Origin: a virus
Length of the DNA stretch: 21,287 nt
Reading direction: 5' to 3' (one strand)
Virus record (IMG/VR): IMGVR_UViG_3300020054_000715
Location: 1 to 21,287 of that record
Part shown: positions 1,118 through 5,424 of the stretch, one piece after another
Numbering within the stretch: position 1 is the first letter of the stretch
Layout: each line of letters starts with the position of its first letter
Made by a program: the position numbers and the translations under genes
The notes under the pieces: model-generated
Databases searched by the model: none
The model's input: the letters and a program-made list of their open reading frames with translations, nothing else
Told to the model about the DNA's origin: nothing

Positions 1118-1245
1118 TGGTCAGTACAGAATGGGATCTTGGGTTGGCAGTTGTTCGTTAGAACTTGGTAGTAGATGTCACCTGCTGCAAGGAAGATAAA
1201 AGGAACAACAAACCACTTGAAGATGCGTTCGAGGTCCTTCTTCAC
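1114..1245 (-). CDS. 43-aa membrane protein with GTG start
   Basis: The frame starting at GTG 1245 encodes 43 residues: a basic N-terminus (KKDLERIFK), one hydrophobic helix (WFVVPFIFLAAG) and a C-terminal part with two cysteines (NNCQPKIPFC), so a single-span protein with a possible extracytoplasmic disulfide. The GTG overlaps the TGA of the upstream gene as GTGA, giving the same four-base coupling seen through the array. An upstream-extended frame to 1536 exists but would overlap the neighbouring gene completely, so I use the GTG. Function unknown; lysis accessory or host-membrane effector are possibilities only. Confidence 0.6.
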   Translation of the reverse strand: MKKDLERIFKWFVVPFIFLAAGDIYYQVLTNNCQPKIPFCTDQ

Positions 1246-1463
1246 TTGAGTTTCTCCAGGTTGTGGATGTTGGCTCCGCCGCAGAGCATGCCTTGAGGAT
1301 CGGGGAAGTCCCACACGATGTGGGCTAGCTCCTTCTTGTGGCCCCAGAAGCCGGTGATGACTCCCCTGGCCTGTGGAGTGAAGCCTGAGATGGCTCCGAT
1401 CTGGCGGCAGAACTTGGAGCTGTAGCGGATGCGGTCGCCGATCTTGAAGTTGGGTTTGGTCAT
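1242..1463 (-). CDS. 73-aa SH3-like small protein
   Basis: This encodes 73 residues with an opening MTKPNFKIGDRIRYSSKF and later GVITGFWG, then a strand-rich tail. The pattern of a 'F-K-x-G-D-R-V/I-R-Y' strand followed by short Gly-bounded strands is typical of small beta-barrel (SH3/KOW-like) domains, although no exact family is claimed. The start is ATG 1463 and not the upstream in-frame alternative at 1487: it carries GGAG just upstream and overlaps the previous gene's TGA as ATGA. The stop overlaps the next GTG. The three adjacent overlaps indicate one translationally coupled message. Confidence 0.65.
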   Translation of the reverse strand: MTKPNFKIGDRIRYSSKFCRQIGAISGFTPQARGVITGFWGHKKELAHIVWDFPDPQGMLCGGANIHNLEKLK

Positions 1464-1708
1464 GCTCCGACCTCGTGCCAGGTGCAAGGGGCGTCGATGT
1501 CATCCGGGCACCACGCCCAACGCTTGATGGGCTCACCGTCGTCGTCGAGGATCTGAATCTCGTCGCAGCTATTGAAGTCGCTGTCGATGTCGTGATCGAT
1601 GGTGCGCTTGGCGTCGGCCAGGGCCGCCTCGAGGGTGGCGAAGGTCCGCTTGTGGGAGGTGCTCCAGGTGTAGTAGGAGACCCGGTTGAAGTGCTTGAGA
1701 GTGAACAT
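1460..1708 (-). CDS. 82-aa hypothetical protein
   Basis: This 82-residue protein has an alternating aromatic/polar N-terminus (MFTLKHFNRVSYYTW), a helix-prone middle (FATLEAALADAKRTIDHDID) and a C-terminus with DDDGEPIKRWAW and two further cysteines. The layout resembles small beta-alpha-alpha-beta phage proteins, but no family is assigned. It is the last gene preceded by the shared leader repeat (copy at 1712-1732, separated from the ATG by three extra bases) and the first member of the ATGA-coupled group, so it joins the two styles of the array. Confidence 0.65.
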   Translation of the reverse strand: MFTLKHFNRVSYYTWSTSHKRTFATLEAALADAKRTIDHDIDSDFNSCDEIQILDDDGEPIKRWAWCPDDIDAPCTWHEVGA

Positions 1709-1711
1709 CAG

Positions 1712-1732
1712 GGTTGCCGTTGTGGGGTGGGC
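1712..1732 (-). repeat. start-associated leader repeat, copy 1
   Basis: Divergent copy upstream of the 1460-1708 gene. It keeps the AACGGCAACC end but has three extra bases (CTG) between this and the ATG, and changes in the distal half. Confidence 0.7.
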
Positions 1733-1747
1733 GATTGAGAGGTGGGA

Positions 1748-1942
1748 TCAGATGATGCCCCAGCCGGTTGCTTCGATCTCAGCGACCAGTTGGCTGTTGT
1801 TCATGGCCTCCAGCTCTGTTCGAATCAACATGGCTTCTGTCTCGGCTTCAGCTTCGGTTGAGTAGCTGTTGGTATCCCACCAACAATCGAGGTACTGCTC
1901 GATCAGATCCTGGCGGCGATCCTTGCTGATGTAGGTGTTCAT
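1748..1942 (-). CDS. 64-aa acidic hypothetical protein
   Basis: This encodes 64 residues starting MNTYISKDRRQDLIEQYLDC and continuing with an acidic helix-rich segment (EAEAETEAML). The ATG at 1942 is chosen and not the longer in-frame start at 2005 because the shared leader repeat ends exactly at 1943, as for its neighbours; translation from 2005 would run through that repeat and overlap the previous gene. A second in-frame ATG lies three codons upstream, inside the repeat, created by a base change in this copy. The fold is probably all-helical; function unknown. Confidence 0.6.
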   Translation of the reverse strand: MNTYISKDRRQDLIEQYLDCWWDTNSYSTEAEAETEAMLIRTELEAMNNSQLVAEIEATGWGII

Positions 1943-1963
1943 GGTTGCCATTGCGAGGTGAGC
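1943..1963 (-). repeat. start-associated leader repeat, copy 2
   Basis: This copy abuts the ATG of the 1748-1942 gene. Reading leftward it ends in CTCGCAATGGCAACC, one base different from the common form, which creates an extra in-frame ATG. Confidence 0.75.
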
Positions 1964-1979
1964 TAGAGGTGGTGAGAAA

Positions 1980-2162
1980 TCACCAGACGTAGAAGCCTTC
2001 AGCATCCTTTGTACCGATCCAGGTGGCCCCGTGCCAGGGCACTTGCGCGAGAGCTTCAGACAGGCTGTCGGCTGTGACGTGGAGCGGATCGACGCTCAGG
2101 TCGTGGTGGTGGAAGGTCCAGGTGAAGGGTGCCTTGCCTTCGGTGCCGTTGCCGCGTTTCAT
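1980..2162 (-). CDS. 60-aa duplicated cassette protein, copy A
   Basis: This 60-residue protein starts MKRGNGTEGKAPFTWTFHHH and ends in TKDAEGFYVW. It is almost identical to the product of 2446-2628: only residue 4 (Gly/Ser) and residue 58 (Tyr/His) differ. It is His- and Trp-rich with a likely beta hairpin and one helix (DSLSEALAQVPW). The leader repeat abuts its ATG. No family is recognised. Retention of two near-identical proteins that differ mainly at silent sites suggests that the product is functional. Confidence 0.7.
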   Translation of the reverse strand: MKRGNGTEGKAPFTWTFHHHDLSVDPLHVTADSLSEALAQVPWHGATWIGTKDAEGFYVW

Positions 2163-2183
2163 GGTTGCCGTTGTGAGGTGGGC
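2163..2183 (-). repeat. start-associated leader repeat, copy 3
   Basis: This copy abuts the ATG of the 1980-2162 gene, with one base change in the middle (CTCACAACGGCAACC). It belongs to the duplicated block. Confidence 0.8.
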
Positions 2184-2198
2184 TGGAGGTGGTGGGAA

Positions 2199-2402
2199 TC
2201 AGTCCCAGAGGAGGAACTGTGGTTGGTTCAGGTCAACGCAGATACGGTTGAAGCGTTGGGTGACGTACTCAGAGACAGCGTCTTCATCGATCCCCTGCTC
2301 CTGCATGTCCTTCCAGAAGGAGTCGGGCATTGAGCTGATCTCGATCTGAGAGCAGATCCAGGCTCGGACGTGCTCGGCTTGTTTGCGGGTGAGCTTGGTC
2401 AT
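2199..2402 (-). CDS. 67-aa hypothetical protein between duplicated cassettes
   Basis: This encodes 67 residues, MTKLTRKQAEHVRAWICSQI at the start, then a stretch with two cysteines, acidic and helix-prone (FWKDMQEQGIDEDAVSEY). It is probably all-alpha. It lies between the two duplicated 60-residue cassettes. Its leader repeat copy (2409-2429) is separated from the ATG by six extra bases. Function unknown. Confidence 0.65.
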   Translation of the reverse strand: MTKLTRKQAEHVRAWICSQIEISSMPDSFWKDMQEQGIDEDAVSEYVTQRFNRICVDLNQPQFLLWD

Positions 2403-2408
2403 GGTCAG

Positions 2409-2429
2409 GGTTGCCGTTGCGAGGTGGGC
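2409..2429 (-). repeat. start-associated leader repeat, copy 4
   Basis: Common form (CACCTCGCAACGGCAACC reading leftward), separated from the ATG at 2402 by six extra bases. Confidence 0.8.
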
Positions 2430-2445
2430 TTGAGGTGGTGAGCGA

Positions 2446-2628
2446 TCACCAGACGTGGAAGCCTTCAGCGTCCTTTGTACCGATCCAGGTGGCTCCGTGC
2501 CAGGGCACTTGGGCGAGAGCCTCGGACAGGCTATCGGCGGTGACGTGGAGGGGATCGACGCTCAGATCGTGGTGGTGGAAGGTCCAGGTGAAAGGTGCTT
2601 TGCCTTCGGTGCCGTTGCTGCGTTTCAT
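2446..2628 (-). CDS. 60-aa duplicated cassette protein, copy B
   Basis: Near-identical partner of 1980-2162 (see there): 58 of 60 residues agree. By eye the two genes differ at 13 bases, of which 11 are silent, so the protein has been held constant while the DNA drifted. The similarity continues through the leader repeats on both sides, so a whole cassette (leader plus gene) was copied. The leader repeat ends directly at its ATG (2629). Function unknown. Confidence 0.7.
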   Translation of the reverse strand: MKRSNGTEGKAPFTWTFHHHDLSVDPLHVTADSLSEALAQVPWHGATWIGTKDAEGFHVW

Positions 2629-2649
2629 GGTTGCCGTTGCGAGGTGGGC
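2629..2649 (-). repeat. start-associated leader repeat, copy 5
   Basis: Common form directly next to the ATG of the 2446-2628 gene; it fills most of the 30-base gap between genes. Confidence 0.85.
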
Positions 2650-2658
2650 TTGAGGTGA

Positions 2659-2880
2659 TCAGGAAAGGGTCGGATCGAAGTCCCAGCCAGCGGAGATGAC
2701 TCCGCAGACTTCGTAGTCGTCGTTGCGGTCGACCTGGCCCAGGTCCATGTTGCGGTAGTAGGCCAGCTCTTTGAACTTGCTGCGGGCTTGTGCAGCAGAG
2801 CGTGCTGTGAGCGTCTCCAGGTAGCCGTTGTCCTGGCCTTTGAAGAAGAGCTCAGCGGTGTAGTGGAAAGAAGCGTTCAT
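2659..2880 (-). CDS. 73-aa hypothetical protein
   Basis: This encodes 73 residues beginning MNASFHYTAELFFKGQDNGY, with a strand, then a helix rich in Ala/Arg/Lys (ARSAAQARSKFKELAYYRN), then strands towards the C-terminus. The beta-alpha-beta outline is common among tiny phage proteins and does not identify a function. The leader repeat (2881-2901) abuts the ATG. The 30-base gap to the next gene consists almost wholly of another leader copy. Confidence 0.65.
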   Translation of the reverse strand: MNASFHYTAELFFKGQDNGYLETLTARSAAQARSKFKELAYYRNMDLGQVDRNDDYEVCGVISAGWDFDPTLS

Positions 2881-2901
2881 GGTTGCCGTTGCGATGTGGG
2901 C
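2881..2901 (-). repeat. start-associated leader repeat, copy 6
   Basis: One base different from the common form (CACATCGCAACGGCAACC), directly next to the ATG of the 2659-2880 gene. Confidence 0.8.
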
Positions 2902-2912
2902 TTGAGGTTGAG

Positions 2913-3107
2913 TCAGGCGTCGAGCTGATGCAGCTCGTGCTCGATTGACCGGATCATGTGACCGGCCCAGGCCTGCTGCTCGGGTGAAGCAGGGTCCCAG
3001 AAGATGGCGCGGAAGTCGGCCAGCTCTTGGGTGAGCTCCTCACGCAGCCTGCGATCGGCGCGGAATGCTGCGAGGGCGTTGAGCTCGTCTTGGGATTGCC
3101 AGAACAT
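2913..3107 (-). CDS. 64-aa helical protein, first of leftward array
   Basis: This 64-residue protein is strongly helical and charged (MFWQSQDELNALAAFRADRR, then LREELTQELADFRAIFW and a final HELHQLDA), so an alpha-helical hairpin or coiled coil is likely. It is the promoter-proximal gene of the array: upstream of its leader repeat (3108-3128) lies the long non-coding region to 3633. Function unknown. The frame, composition and leader repeat together make it a confident gene. Confidence 0.65.
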   Translation of the reverse strand: MFWQSQDELNALAAFRADRRLREELTQELADFRAIFWDPASPEQQAWAGHMIRSIEHELHQLDA

Positions 3108-3128
3108 GGTTGCCGTTGCGAGGTGGGC
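3108..3128 (-). repeat. start-associated leader repeat, copy 7
   Basis: Common form next to the ATG of the first gene of the array (2913-3107). A short inverted repeat (AGCGAA at 3132-3137 with TTCGCT at 3152-3157) lies just upstream and could form a leader hairpin. Confidence 0.8.
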
Positions 3129-3207
3129 TGAAGCGAAGCCGTTATCTCGATTTCGCTGCGCTCAATCTACAACCCAGACCCAGCCACCCAGCCAGAAAGT
3201 AACAACG

Positions 3208-3226
3208 CTTAATATTAAGTGCACTT
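3208..3226. promoter_or_regulatory. overlapping palindromes, candidate operator
   Basis: CTTAATATTAAG (3208-3219) and AAGTGCACTT (3217-3226) are both perfect palindromes and share three bases. They lie about 100 bases upstream of the first array gene. The AT-rich centre could also include the -10 of the leftward promoter. Confidence 0.45.
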
Positions 3227-3447
3227 ATCAGTTCCTTATGTGTGATCAAGGTGAAGTCGGAGTGACTACGGGTTAGGACAGCACCAGATGAGCCTCTCGG
3301 TTATTGAGAATAGATTGCAATAAGAGTTTTCCCCAGGGGCTTACGCGCTACAGGCGACCCGAGAGATCCACCAGCTACCTGGCCGCCCGGCCCTGCTTTC
3401 CTGCGAATAATTCGCAATAAAGGGGCAAAATAGGGGGTAAAACGGCC

Positions 3448-3488
3448 AATTTGTCAAGAATTTGTCACATTTCCGTCATATTTGACAG
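3448..3488. promoter_or_regulatory. 11-bp phased TTTGTCA repeats
   Basis: AATTTGTCA occurs at 3448-3456 and again at 3459-3467; a third, weaker unit ending in GTCA follows at 3470-3478 with the same 11-base step, and an opposing TTTGACA lies at 3481-3487. One helical turn between units puts them on the same face of the DNA, as expected for a cooperative operator or origin iterons. Confidence 0.45.
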
Positions 3489-3633
3489 AATTCCCTCGAT
3501 GTGATCCAGATTTCCCACCTGATTCCTGTCCAGATGTGTCCAGGCCACTGGTCCAGGTCCCCGGATCCCTCTCCCTGACTGCCCCCGGCCCCTTGCGTAC
3601 CTGTCTGAAGTGCAGATACGCAGGATTGACCAC

Positions 3634-3655
3634 AAAAAAAGGGGCTCGAGGCCCC
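3634..3655 (-). terminator. intrinsic terminator of the leftward four-gene unit
   Basis: Read leftward, the stem GGGGC/GCCCC with loop CTCGA (3655-3641) is followed immediately by seven T (3640-3634). It lies about 30 bases after the stop of the 3687-3893 gene. Confidence 0.8.
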
Positions 3656-4210: not shown

Positions 4211-4245
4211 GGGTCCGTTGTTGTAAGGGTTGACAGGATGGAGGG

Positions 4246-4261
4246 GAGCCCCGTAGGGCTC
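4246..4261 (-). other. perfect 6-bp hairpin at a stop codon
   Basis: GAGCCC-CGTA-GGGCTC forms a perfect stem with a four-base loop, overlapping the stop of the 4260-5099 gene. No T-run follows on the minus strand, so it is more likely an RNA stability or processing element than an intrinsic terminator. Confidence 0.4.
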
Positions 4262-5099
4262 AGGCGATACAGAAGGCGCGGCGCTGTTCTTCAGTCTGGC
4301 CAGGGGTCCGCTTGATCCGCAGGAGCACGACGTGGGTCCGGCCTGCAGTGTCACCGGGGCGCCAGTCGGTCACGTCCCCATCCAAGGTGGGGTAGGTCTG
4401 GCCATCGATCACCACCGTCTCGGGCAGGGTCGCGCTACGGGGCAGGGTGATGGCGGCGGCGTAGTTGAGGCCCAGCTCAGAGGCCTTGGCCAGGGTGTTG
4501 AACCGGGACCCGTGAGACAGGGTGAGGTGATAGCCCTGCCGGGCAGCGGCTGCCCAATCGCGATCGGTCCGTTTCGTGTAGTCATACGGCTTCAGGGCAG
4601 GGACCACGGCTCGCAGCAGGCTGAAGAGGGACCACGTCCCCACGGGCAGGGTGAAGCCAAAGGCCTGGCCAACGTAACCGGCCAAATCACTGTCCACGTC
4701 TACGGTCTCGCGCTCCCAGGCAAAGTCGGAGGTCCCGTTAAGGCGCAGGCCCAGGGTGGCGGCCCCGGCATGCTTACTGGCGAAGCGCAGGATCTCAAGA
4801 ATCAGCAGGCGCTTAAAGGCCCTAGGGCTCTCGTGGAAGGCCTGGCTCCGGAGCTTCCGGCGCTGCAGCTTGCCCTTGAGATAGGCCGGGTTACCGGCAC
4901 GGTTCAGGCAAACGGCCTGGCAGGACCCGGCAGCCGGGCAGGATCCCAGCCACATCGGGGTTAGGTGCAAGACGGCGGTGGGAGCGATGCTCTCAGACTT
5001 CAGAACCTTAGGGTTCGTCAGCGTCAGAACGTTGCTGGACGTGAAGCCATAGCGGGCGCGGAGGTCGCGCAGGTCAGAGGGAAGGATGAGACGGGGCAT
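4260..5099 (-). CDS. cysteine-motif protein resembling phage Gene product 88
   Basis: This 279-residue protein has CPAAGSCQAVC at about residues 54-64 (spacing C-x5-C-x3-C), followed by an Arg/Lys-rich stretch and later LRLNGTSDFAWE (about 118-129) and KPYDYTKR. The order 'three clustered cysteines, then R-x-N-G-x-S-D, then Y-D-Y-T-K' is what I associate with the phage Gene product 88-like family, widely found in tailed phages without a known biochemical role. The cysteines could hold a metal or Fe-S cluster and the repeated strand motifs would suit a TIM-barrel-like core; both are inference. The start is ATG 5099; a TTG three codons upstream is less likely. A run of nine C (on the coding strand) precedes it. 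Confidence 0.6.
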   Translation of the reverse strand: MPRLILPSDLRDLRARYGFTSSNVLTLTNPKVLKSESIAPTAVLHLTPMWLGSCPAAGSCQAVCLNRAGNPAYLKGKLQRRKLRSQAFHESPRAFKRLLILEILRFASKHAGAATLGLRLNGTSDFAWERETVDVDSDLAGYVGQAFGFTLPVGTWSLFSLLRAVVPALKPYDYTKRTDRDWAAAARQGYHLTLSHGSRFNTLAKASELGLNYAAAITLPRSATLPETVVIDGQTYPTLDGDVTDWRPGDTAGRTHVVLLRIKRTPGQTEEQRRAFCIA

Positions 5100-5123
5100 G
5101 ACGATCAAGCGATGAGATCAGAA

Positions 5124-5132
5124 GGGGGGGGG
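5124..5132. repeat. homopolymer G9 tract
   Basis: Nine consecutive G on the plus strand lie in the 40-base gap between two leftward genes, about 25 bases upstream of the ATG at 5099. Such tracts slip easily in replication and in sequencing. Confidence 0.7.
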
Positions 5133-5139
5133 TGAGGGA

Positions 5140-5424
5140 TCAGCAGGGCTGGCCCATGGTGCGCTTTAGCTCCAGATACAGGCCGGGACGGATGTCGACG
5201 CGCTCGGCCTCCCTGGCCATAGGCCAGAAGTGGGAGGGAACGCAGTGATAGCCCCGGTAGCCCTCATCCCAGGCAGCCACCCGGCGCCCGTCCTGAACCA
5301 GGACGAACAGCCGGCGCGGGTTGCCGTTGCGGTCGTTGTGCGTGCAGCAGTGCTGGAAATACATCGGGCGATCAGCGAAGAGATCAGAAGCGGCCAGAGC
5401 TGCCGCTGAATCCATCTTGCCCAT
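5140..5424 (-). CDS. 94-aa hypothetical protein
   Basis: This encodes 94 residues starting MGKMDSAAALAASDLFADRP, then HCCTHNDRNGNPRRLFVLVQ, then aromatic, strand-rich sequence (WDEGYRGYHCVPSHFWP). Three cysteines and several histidines could bind a metal. The NGNPRRLFVLV strand resembles short beta-sheet proteins of cyanobacterial viruses in style, not by any confirmed match. It is the first gene of the second leftward unit and faces the divergent control region. A second in-frame ATG three codons in could be the true start. Confidence 0.6.
   Translation of the reverse strand: MGKMDSAAALAASDLFADRPMYFQHCCTHNDRNGNPRRLFVLVQDGRRVAAWDEGYRGYHCVPSHFWPMAREAERVDIRPGLYLELKRTMGQPC

Follow-up and report, generated by a model that had tools for sequence, protein, structure and literature searches.

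Seven consecutive leftward genes in a cyanophage genome fragment are each preceded by a copy of the same element, which ends at the ATG or a few nucleotides before it. The element probably represents one lineage's variant of a start-associated sequence that occurs in many phages related to Synechococcus phage S-EIV1. The sequence comparisons described here somewhat favor its being a modular, largely Shine-Dalgarno (SD)-independent translation-initiation site that may also serve as an exchange point for gene cassettes. The window, by which we mean the whole stretch of DNA analyzed, is a virus record of 21,287 bases and represents a fragment of an S-EIV1-like cyanophage. Its terminase shows 66% identity to that of S-EIV1 (KJ410740), with 91% of the length covered, and a terminase scan of viral contigs detected at least 599 relatives.

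Seven repeats in a leftward array of small genes

The terminase, portal, and major head protein genes are read rightward from about 12 kb of the window. The small-gene array, which is presumably transcribed as one operon, is read leftward at 1 to 3.1 kb, on the strand opposite the terminase, portal, and capsid genes, and thus has a nonstructural setting. A second leftward gene group, at about 3.7 to 5.4 kb, adjoins the array and diverges from the rightward genes. A simple gene caller misplaced several starts and served for overview only. The features of the array and its leader, in window coordinates, are as follows.

3131..3640, minus strand: conserved untranslated leader and presumed promoter region of the array operon, from alignment with the relatives G017 and G011
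3132..3157, minus strand: leader hairpin AGCGAA...TTCGCT directly 5' of the first element, from the sequence and the aligned hairpin in G017 and G011
3108..3130, minus strand: element copy A, at the end of the leader
2913..3107, minus strand: gene A, 64 aa, resembling cyanomyophage proteins in its C-terminal part
2881..2908, minus strand: element copy B
2659..2880, minus strand: gene B, 73 aa, no known family
2629..2657, minus strand: element copy C
2446..2628, minus strand: gene C, 60 aa, paralogue of E
2409..2440, minus strand: element copy D, followed by CTGACC-ATG
2199..2402, minus strand: gene D, 67 aa, with a homologue that heads the array in G017 and G011
2163..2194, minus strand: element copy E
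1980..2162, minus strand: gene E, 60 aa, paralogue of C
1943..1974, minus strand: element copy F, with an in-frame ATG from a C-to-T change
1748..1942, minus strand: gene F, 64 aa
1712..1744, minus strand: element copy G, the most diverged, followed by CTG-ATG
1460..1708, minus strand: gene G, 82 aa, G017 homologue without the element
1242..1463, minus strand: gene H, 73 aa, overlapping G by 4 nt, without the element here; the G026 homologue has it

The 18-mer CACCTCGCAACGGCAACC is present in seven minus-strand copies with 0 to 2 mismatches (at 1712, 1943, 2163, 2409, 2629, 2881, and 3108, spanning 1712 to 3125), compared with 0.03 copies expected on average from dinucleotide shuffles, and no eighth copy was found in the window at up to 3 mismatches. 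Each copy precedes one of seven consecutive leftward open reading frames (ORFs), all seven in the same orientation, which confirms the one-repeat-per-gene layout described in the initial annotation. The spacing described there is also confirmed, with five of the seven copies abutting the ATG and those of genes G and D set 3 and 6 nt from it. Copy A, which ends the long leader, is the only shorter copy. Against the proposed length of about 21 bases, the internal copies are longer, at about 28 to 32 nt (CACCACCTCAAGCCCACCTCGCAACGGCAACC), and occupy nearly the whole of the 30- to 43-nt stop-to-start gaps of the element-bearing genes; gene H and several later element-less genes overlap their neighbors by 1 to 4 nt. 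A coding leader, against which the initial annotation already argued, is rejected here, because the gaps keep no constant frame and stop codons lie upstream of the element. The C-to-T change in copy F places its upstream ATG within the element. A CTG start was considered for copies D and G, where this codon is in frame, as it is in some relatives; it is out of frame in G011 (CTGACATG), and ATG is therefore preferred. Rfam gave no match in the window or its relatives. When viral and genome collections were searched for exact and near-exact matches to the 18-mer, G017 (contig L094) was the sole true relative, the other matches being judged chance from their context.

Genes C and E are about 92% identical, and the repeated block consists of element, gene, and element. 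The two genes differ by 11 synonymous and 2 nonsynonymous changes (dN/dS of about 0.04), indicating that these ORFs are selected as proteins. Apart from this pair, the array genes show no similarity to one another. The array proteins matched no significant family in Pfam or PHROGs, and no relatives of the gene C/E protein were found in viral contigs. The C-terminal part of gene A shows 51 to 60% identity to hypothetical proteins of Synechococcus phages, among them S-B68, S-N03, and MA01, which indicates that gene A is shared among cyanophage groups.

The gene preceding the leader ends in a terminator-like hairpin (3655-3641). The leader can be aligned over about 550 nt in G017 and G011, with a hairpin just before the first element, and CGAA..TTCG hairpins ahead of the first element also occur in other relatives; in the window, an upstream hairpin accompanies the first copy only. 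The leader contains an inverted repeat, TGCGAATTATTCGCA (3402-3416), which is conserved in G017 with one change and is a possible operator. The neighboring leftward group has a start-associated pair of its own on the minus strand (5101-5124 and 5367-5390), CTTCTGATCTCTTCGCTGATCG(cccg)ATG and CTTCTGATCTCATCGCTTGATCG(tc)ATG, which is unlike the array element and suggests operon-specific leaders.

A start-anchored core in S-EIV1-like phages

Many S-EIV1-like phages carry a core, CCAC(C/T)TAGNA(A/C)GGA, 1 to 11 nt before an ATG, and repeat pairs that end at starts are found in other contigs of this lineage, for example, CATCCACCTAGCAAGGATCACC-ATG (L082) and CCACCTAGCAAGGAGCAAC-ATG (L064). A motif profile was seeded from start-adjacent pairs, and sites were gathered without start information at a threshold of 16 bits, counting nonredundant sites outside the window in the contigs of the analysis set. 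Of the 35 sites, 31 are followed within 1 to 11 nt by an ATG that opens an ORF at least 40 codons long; the corresponding share of random positions is 4.5% (P of about 1e-37). In two further genomes, G033 and G035, all 10 sites are at starts; these genomes are mutually related and each was found through one element, which leaves eight of the 10 sites independent of the search. Column-permuted patterns, the control for these genomes, gave 0.1 hits per pattern, 13% of them at starts. The family search called for in the initial annotation thus shows that relatives of the element do adjoin start codons.

In a first scan, the pattern CAYCCACCTAGCAAGGA, which contains no ATG, was matched by 13 stretches across the entire viral collection, 11 of them on S-EIV1-like contigs. 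A second scan with the SD-less form TCCACCTAGYACGGAS returned eight; six belong to S-EIV1-like contigs, where all matches are start-adjacent, and the other two are away from starts on contigs without an S-EIV1-like terminase. One of the four stretches that the two scans together found outside the lineage has an ATG in place; on L132, an unrelated high-GC contig from the first scan, the ATG is 8 nt onward. The core was found in fewer than half of the S-EIV1-like contigs examined, a set with many fragments, and S-EIV1 itself gave no site. In the relatives, the start-associated sites occupy the strand that does not encode the terminase and adjoin the same divergent gene as in the window. In the marine S-EIV1-like contig L029 (G001), three minus-strand starts (near 2853, 2638, and 1853) in the same genome position carry another start-associated repeat, CACTTCTAAGGTTCACC, which is too diverged to assign; the contig also has a pair, CCATCAGCACC-ATG.

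Eight positions of the core (C0, C1, A2, C3, T5, G7, A9, and G12) are invariant in all 31 start-adjacent sites. Position 8 is free, and position 10, which distinguishes AAGG from ACGG, is A in 19 and C in 12 of them. Information falls sharply beyond the 14-mer, and the length of the spacer is free. In the relatives, a stem-loop precedes most core copies (mean z, -2.1; below -1.5 at 21 of 31), usually a GC-rich one closed by a UUCG- or UCCG-type loop. In several relatives, namely in the arrays of G024 to G028, G032, and L064, such GC-rich UUCG/UCCG stem-loops, which have no T tract, separate the array genes and lie just upstream of the element.

Homology between the window form and this core is likely, as judged by several agreements of sequence and setting. 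Position, orientation, layout, and leader context are alike, and the window element precedes the ATGs of a leftward array beside the g5712 homologue, the placement that is characteristic of the lineage family. In a start-anchored gapped alignment (CCACCTCGCAACG-GCAAC versus CCACCTAGCAAGGAGCAAC), none of 3,000 shuffles was as good for four of the copies, and 42, 19, and 596 were for the other three, the reference form having been chosen after both forms were seen. Intermediates, CCACCTCGCTAGGT and CCACTTCGCTAGGT, occur in G006 and G011 before an ORF of the neighboring leftward group, the G011 intermediate preceding the homologue of the window's 279-aa gene. The window form deviates from the core at 3 of 14 positions, and under an ungapped profile trained without the window lineage, its best copies reach 9.3 bits, with none above the mean chance maximum.

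The locus is shared with G017 (IMGVR 3300032194_000381, 67.7 kb) and G011 (3300030708_003001, 14.2 kb), in which the leader is followed by an element and the gene D homologue and then by elements of the form CACCTACCGGCAACCCTG-ATG before other genes. Contig L094, which is the G017 record, and L011 (3300032194_000310) come from one sample and end near the same gene; they are probably adjoining parts of one phage genome. Gene D, fourth in the window array, heads the array behind the same leader in G017 and G011, so that either the window gained cassettes in front of it or the relatives lost some. The element precedes gene G in the window but not in G017, and gene H lacks it in the window, G017, and G011 and has it in G026; orthologues of family F11 likewise exist with and without it. 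Where the element is missing, the gene usually overlaps or closely follows the preceding gene. The element is therefore not obligatory for a gene, and these comparisons place it with the cassette context more than with the gene. The initial annotation named, as evidence against its reading, relatives that have lost or misplaced the repeats although their genes are still expressed; orthologues without the element do exist for G, H, and F11, which bears out this objection in part. Cassettes, each an element plus a gene, vary in order and content among phages, with boundaries at the elements, as in the orders F11-F12-F13 (G024), F11-F22-F13 (G027), and F15-F12-F13 (G025), in which every gene has its element. 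Together with the C/E duplication, these orders suggest cassette exchange. The elements themselves may drive this exchange; the pattern could also arise from selection for functional starts.

Initiation, exchange, and alternative explanations

At all seven array starts, the anti-SD duplex is -1.5 to -1.7 kcal/mol, and no SD (complementarity to CCUCC) is present. By a crude measure, a duplex of -5 or better occurs at 22% of S-EIV1 genes of at least 100 aa versus 18% of random positions, and at 6 of the 22 other genes of the window. The absence of an SD noted in the initial annotation is thus real but nothing special in these phages. The stronger idea that the element is inherently SD-less fails, because 18 of the 31 core copies in relatives contain AAGG, often as AAGGA(G). 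ACGG is found in 12 of the 31, and the CCACCTAG box is nearly invariant throughout. Since the SD base is lost in these 12 while the box stays, the motif is more than an SD; the best-conserved part, CCACCTAG, is the part that cannot pair with the anti-SD. The array starts are less structured, with a mean unpaired value of 0.63 compared with 0.49 for 22 other window starts (P = 6e-4), and the trend recurs in the relatives (0.56 at element starts versus 0.40 nearby; P = 1e-12). The C/A-rich, G-poor makeup of the element (49% C and 14% G) partly accounts for this low structure. An internal mini-hairpin in the core (CCU-AGCA-AGG) is broken in ACGG copies and finds no support, and a CsrA-like ANGGA core fits the relatives (AAGGA/ACGGA) but not the window (ACGGC).

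In the mechanism that these data somewhat favor, a G-poor, weakly structured, sequence-specific box immediately ahead of the start codon (of the CCACCTAG type, with the window form CCACCTCGCAACGG-CAACC) would allow each nonoverlapping small cistron of a polycistronic mRNA to be initiated independently of its neighbors. In about 60% of the relatives' copies, the core includes an SD, and the window lineage keeps a GGCAACC-AUG form without one. Because the SD is absent there, recruitment would have to rest on the low structure and the box itself, which might be read by a ribosomal or phage-encoded factor. With internal cassettes flanked on either side by about 30 nt of identical sequence, the elements could also act as homology arms for the duplication, insertion, and replacement of gene-plus-leader cassettes. 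Both roles raised in the initial annotation find support, direction of initiation in the start anchoring, the low structure, and a core conserved beyond the SD, and recombination in the differing cassette orders and the element-bounded duplication. In a bolder and less likely version, the CCACCTAG/CCACCTCGC box would recruit ribosomes in a sequence-specific, SD-independent way through a dedicated factor (a phage protein or host ribosomal component) that reads it and would be a signal of its own kind, that is, the lineage's own start code, attachable to any captured gene.

The element could instead be primarily a recombination module, with homology kept by gene exchange, no expression role, and a position at the ATG that reflects the cassette boundary. 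Such a module could leave the order C-D-E, in which the element-gene-element blocks of C and E are about 92% identical, as well as the cassettes replaced between elements in relatives, the differing places of gene D (first in G017 and G011, fourth in the window), and the window identity of about 30 nt, which runs past the core. We consider this unlikely, because conservation in the relatives is confined to 14 nt, with positions 8 and 10 and the spacer free, which points to recognition of the sequence rather than to recent exchange alone, and because orientation and start anchoring are near-absolute. It is less probable still that each gene has a DNA-level site, either a phage-specific promoter whose transcripts would almost lack a leader or an operator bound by a regulator of the phage. 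Start anchoring is equally expected from a very short-leader promoter or a DNA site, the 14-nt core is highly specific, and the GC-rich hairpin that most of the relatives' copies follow might end the previous transcript. However, no sigma-70-like hexamers were found in the array, the element is nonpalindromic and occurs in a single orientation, and one long leader stands ahead of the whole array. A single-subunit RNA polymerase found no match in six related genomes, a weak result given that the control was also silent. Least probable is a functionless by-product, the 3' end of the leader copied with genes in tandem duplication, since the element is retained beside genes that, C and E aside, are mutually dissimilar, and the lineage-wide invariance of eight positions indicates selection, even though the conserved leader ends in the first copy and C and E are recent duplicates.

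Relation to known start-associated sequences

The start-associated sequence (SAS) of cluster K mycobacteriophages is a 13-bp sequence, GGGATAGGAGCCC, with at most 2 deviations, present in 11 to 19 copies per genome; its function is unproven, and an extended form (ESAS) has a 17-bp imperfect inverted repeat upstream (PMC3203893, PMC12699233). It contains AGGAG and is conserved beyond SD pairing (PMC3203893). The parallel with SAS/ESAS drawn in the initial annotation is apt, as the element is noncoding and start-associated in a layout like that of cluster K; it would work like the cluster K SAS but is not a member, its sequence and hosts being different. Both are short asymmetric repeats in one orientation, a few nucleotides before the ATG, at nonstructural genes of unrelated families whose orthologues occur with and without the repeat; both appear to be conserved past the SD and are sometimes extended by an upstream inverted repeat. 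The start position is shared in 7 of 7 window copies (0, 3, or 6 nt after the 18-mer) and in 31 of 35 sites elsewhere (1 to 11 nt after the 14-mer). In contrast, the sequence here is CCACCTAGNAMGGA or CCACCTCGCAACGG, outside the 13-bp SAS definition, the phages and hosts are others, and the SD can be lost. The upstream structures are GC-rich stem-loops in relatives and a hairpin at the first copy only in the window, outside the 17-bp ESAS definition, and the copy number is 1 to 7 per contig, the contigs being mostly incomplete. A limited literature search found no paper that pairs start-associated sequences with cyanophages, which is weak evidence.

According to a published study (PMC6847405), cyanophages mimic the SD use of their hosts, and SD-less cyanobacterial genes compensate through weak 5' structure. 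The SD-less, weakly structured starts of the array resemble this SD-independent initiation, whereas that study describes a general statistical trend and the element is a specific, conserved, and repeated sequence. If the initiation reading is true, a portable start-codon leader would let new small genes join an operon and be translated at once, and start-associated sequences would exist outside mycobacteriophages, apparently of independent origin, in a cyanophage lineage whose relatives are numerous in environmental sequence data. SD-plus and SD-minus versions occur together within single genomes, so that the function of the box can be tested directly. The element also provides a sequence tag with which accessory genes in these phages can be found and delimited.

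The cyanomyophage S-B68 (L091), compared in passing, also has repeats between short ORFs, one of which is related to gene A, and infects the same kind of host, but its repeats are longer and unrelated in sequence. They measure 44 to 77 nt and lie in gaps of roughly 72 nt, at 2717-2760, 2952-2995, 3183-3259, and 4218-4294.
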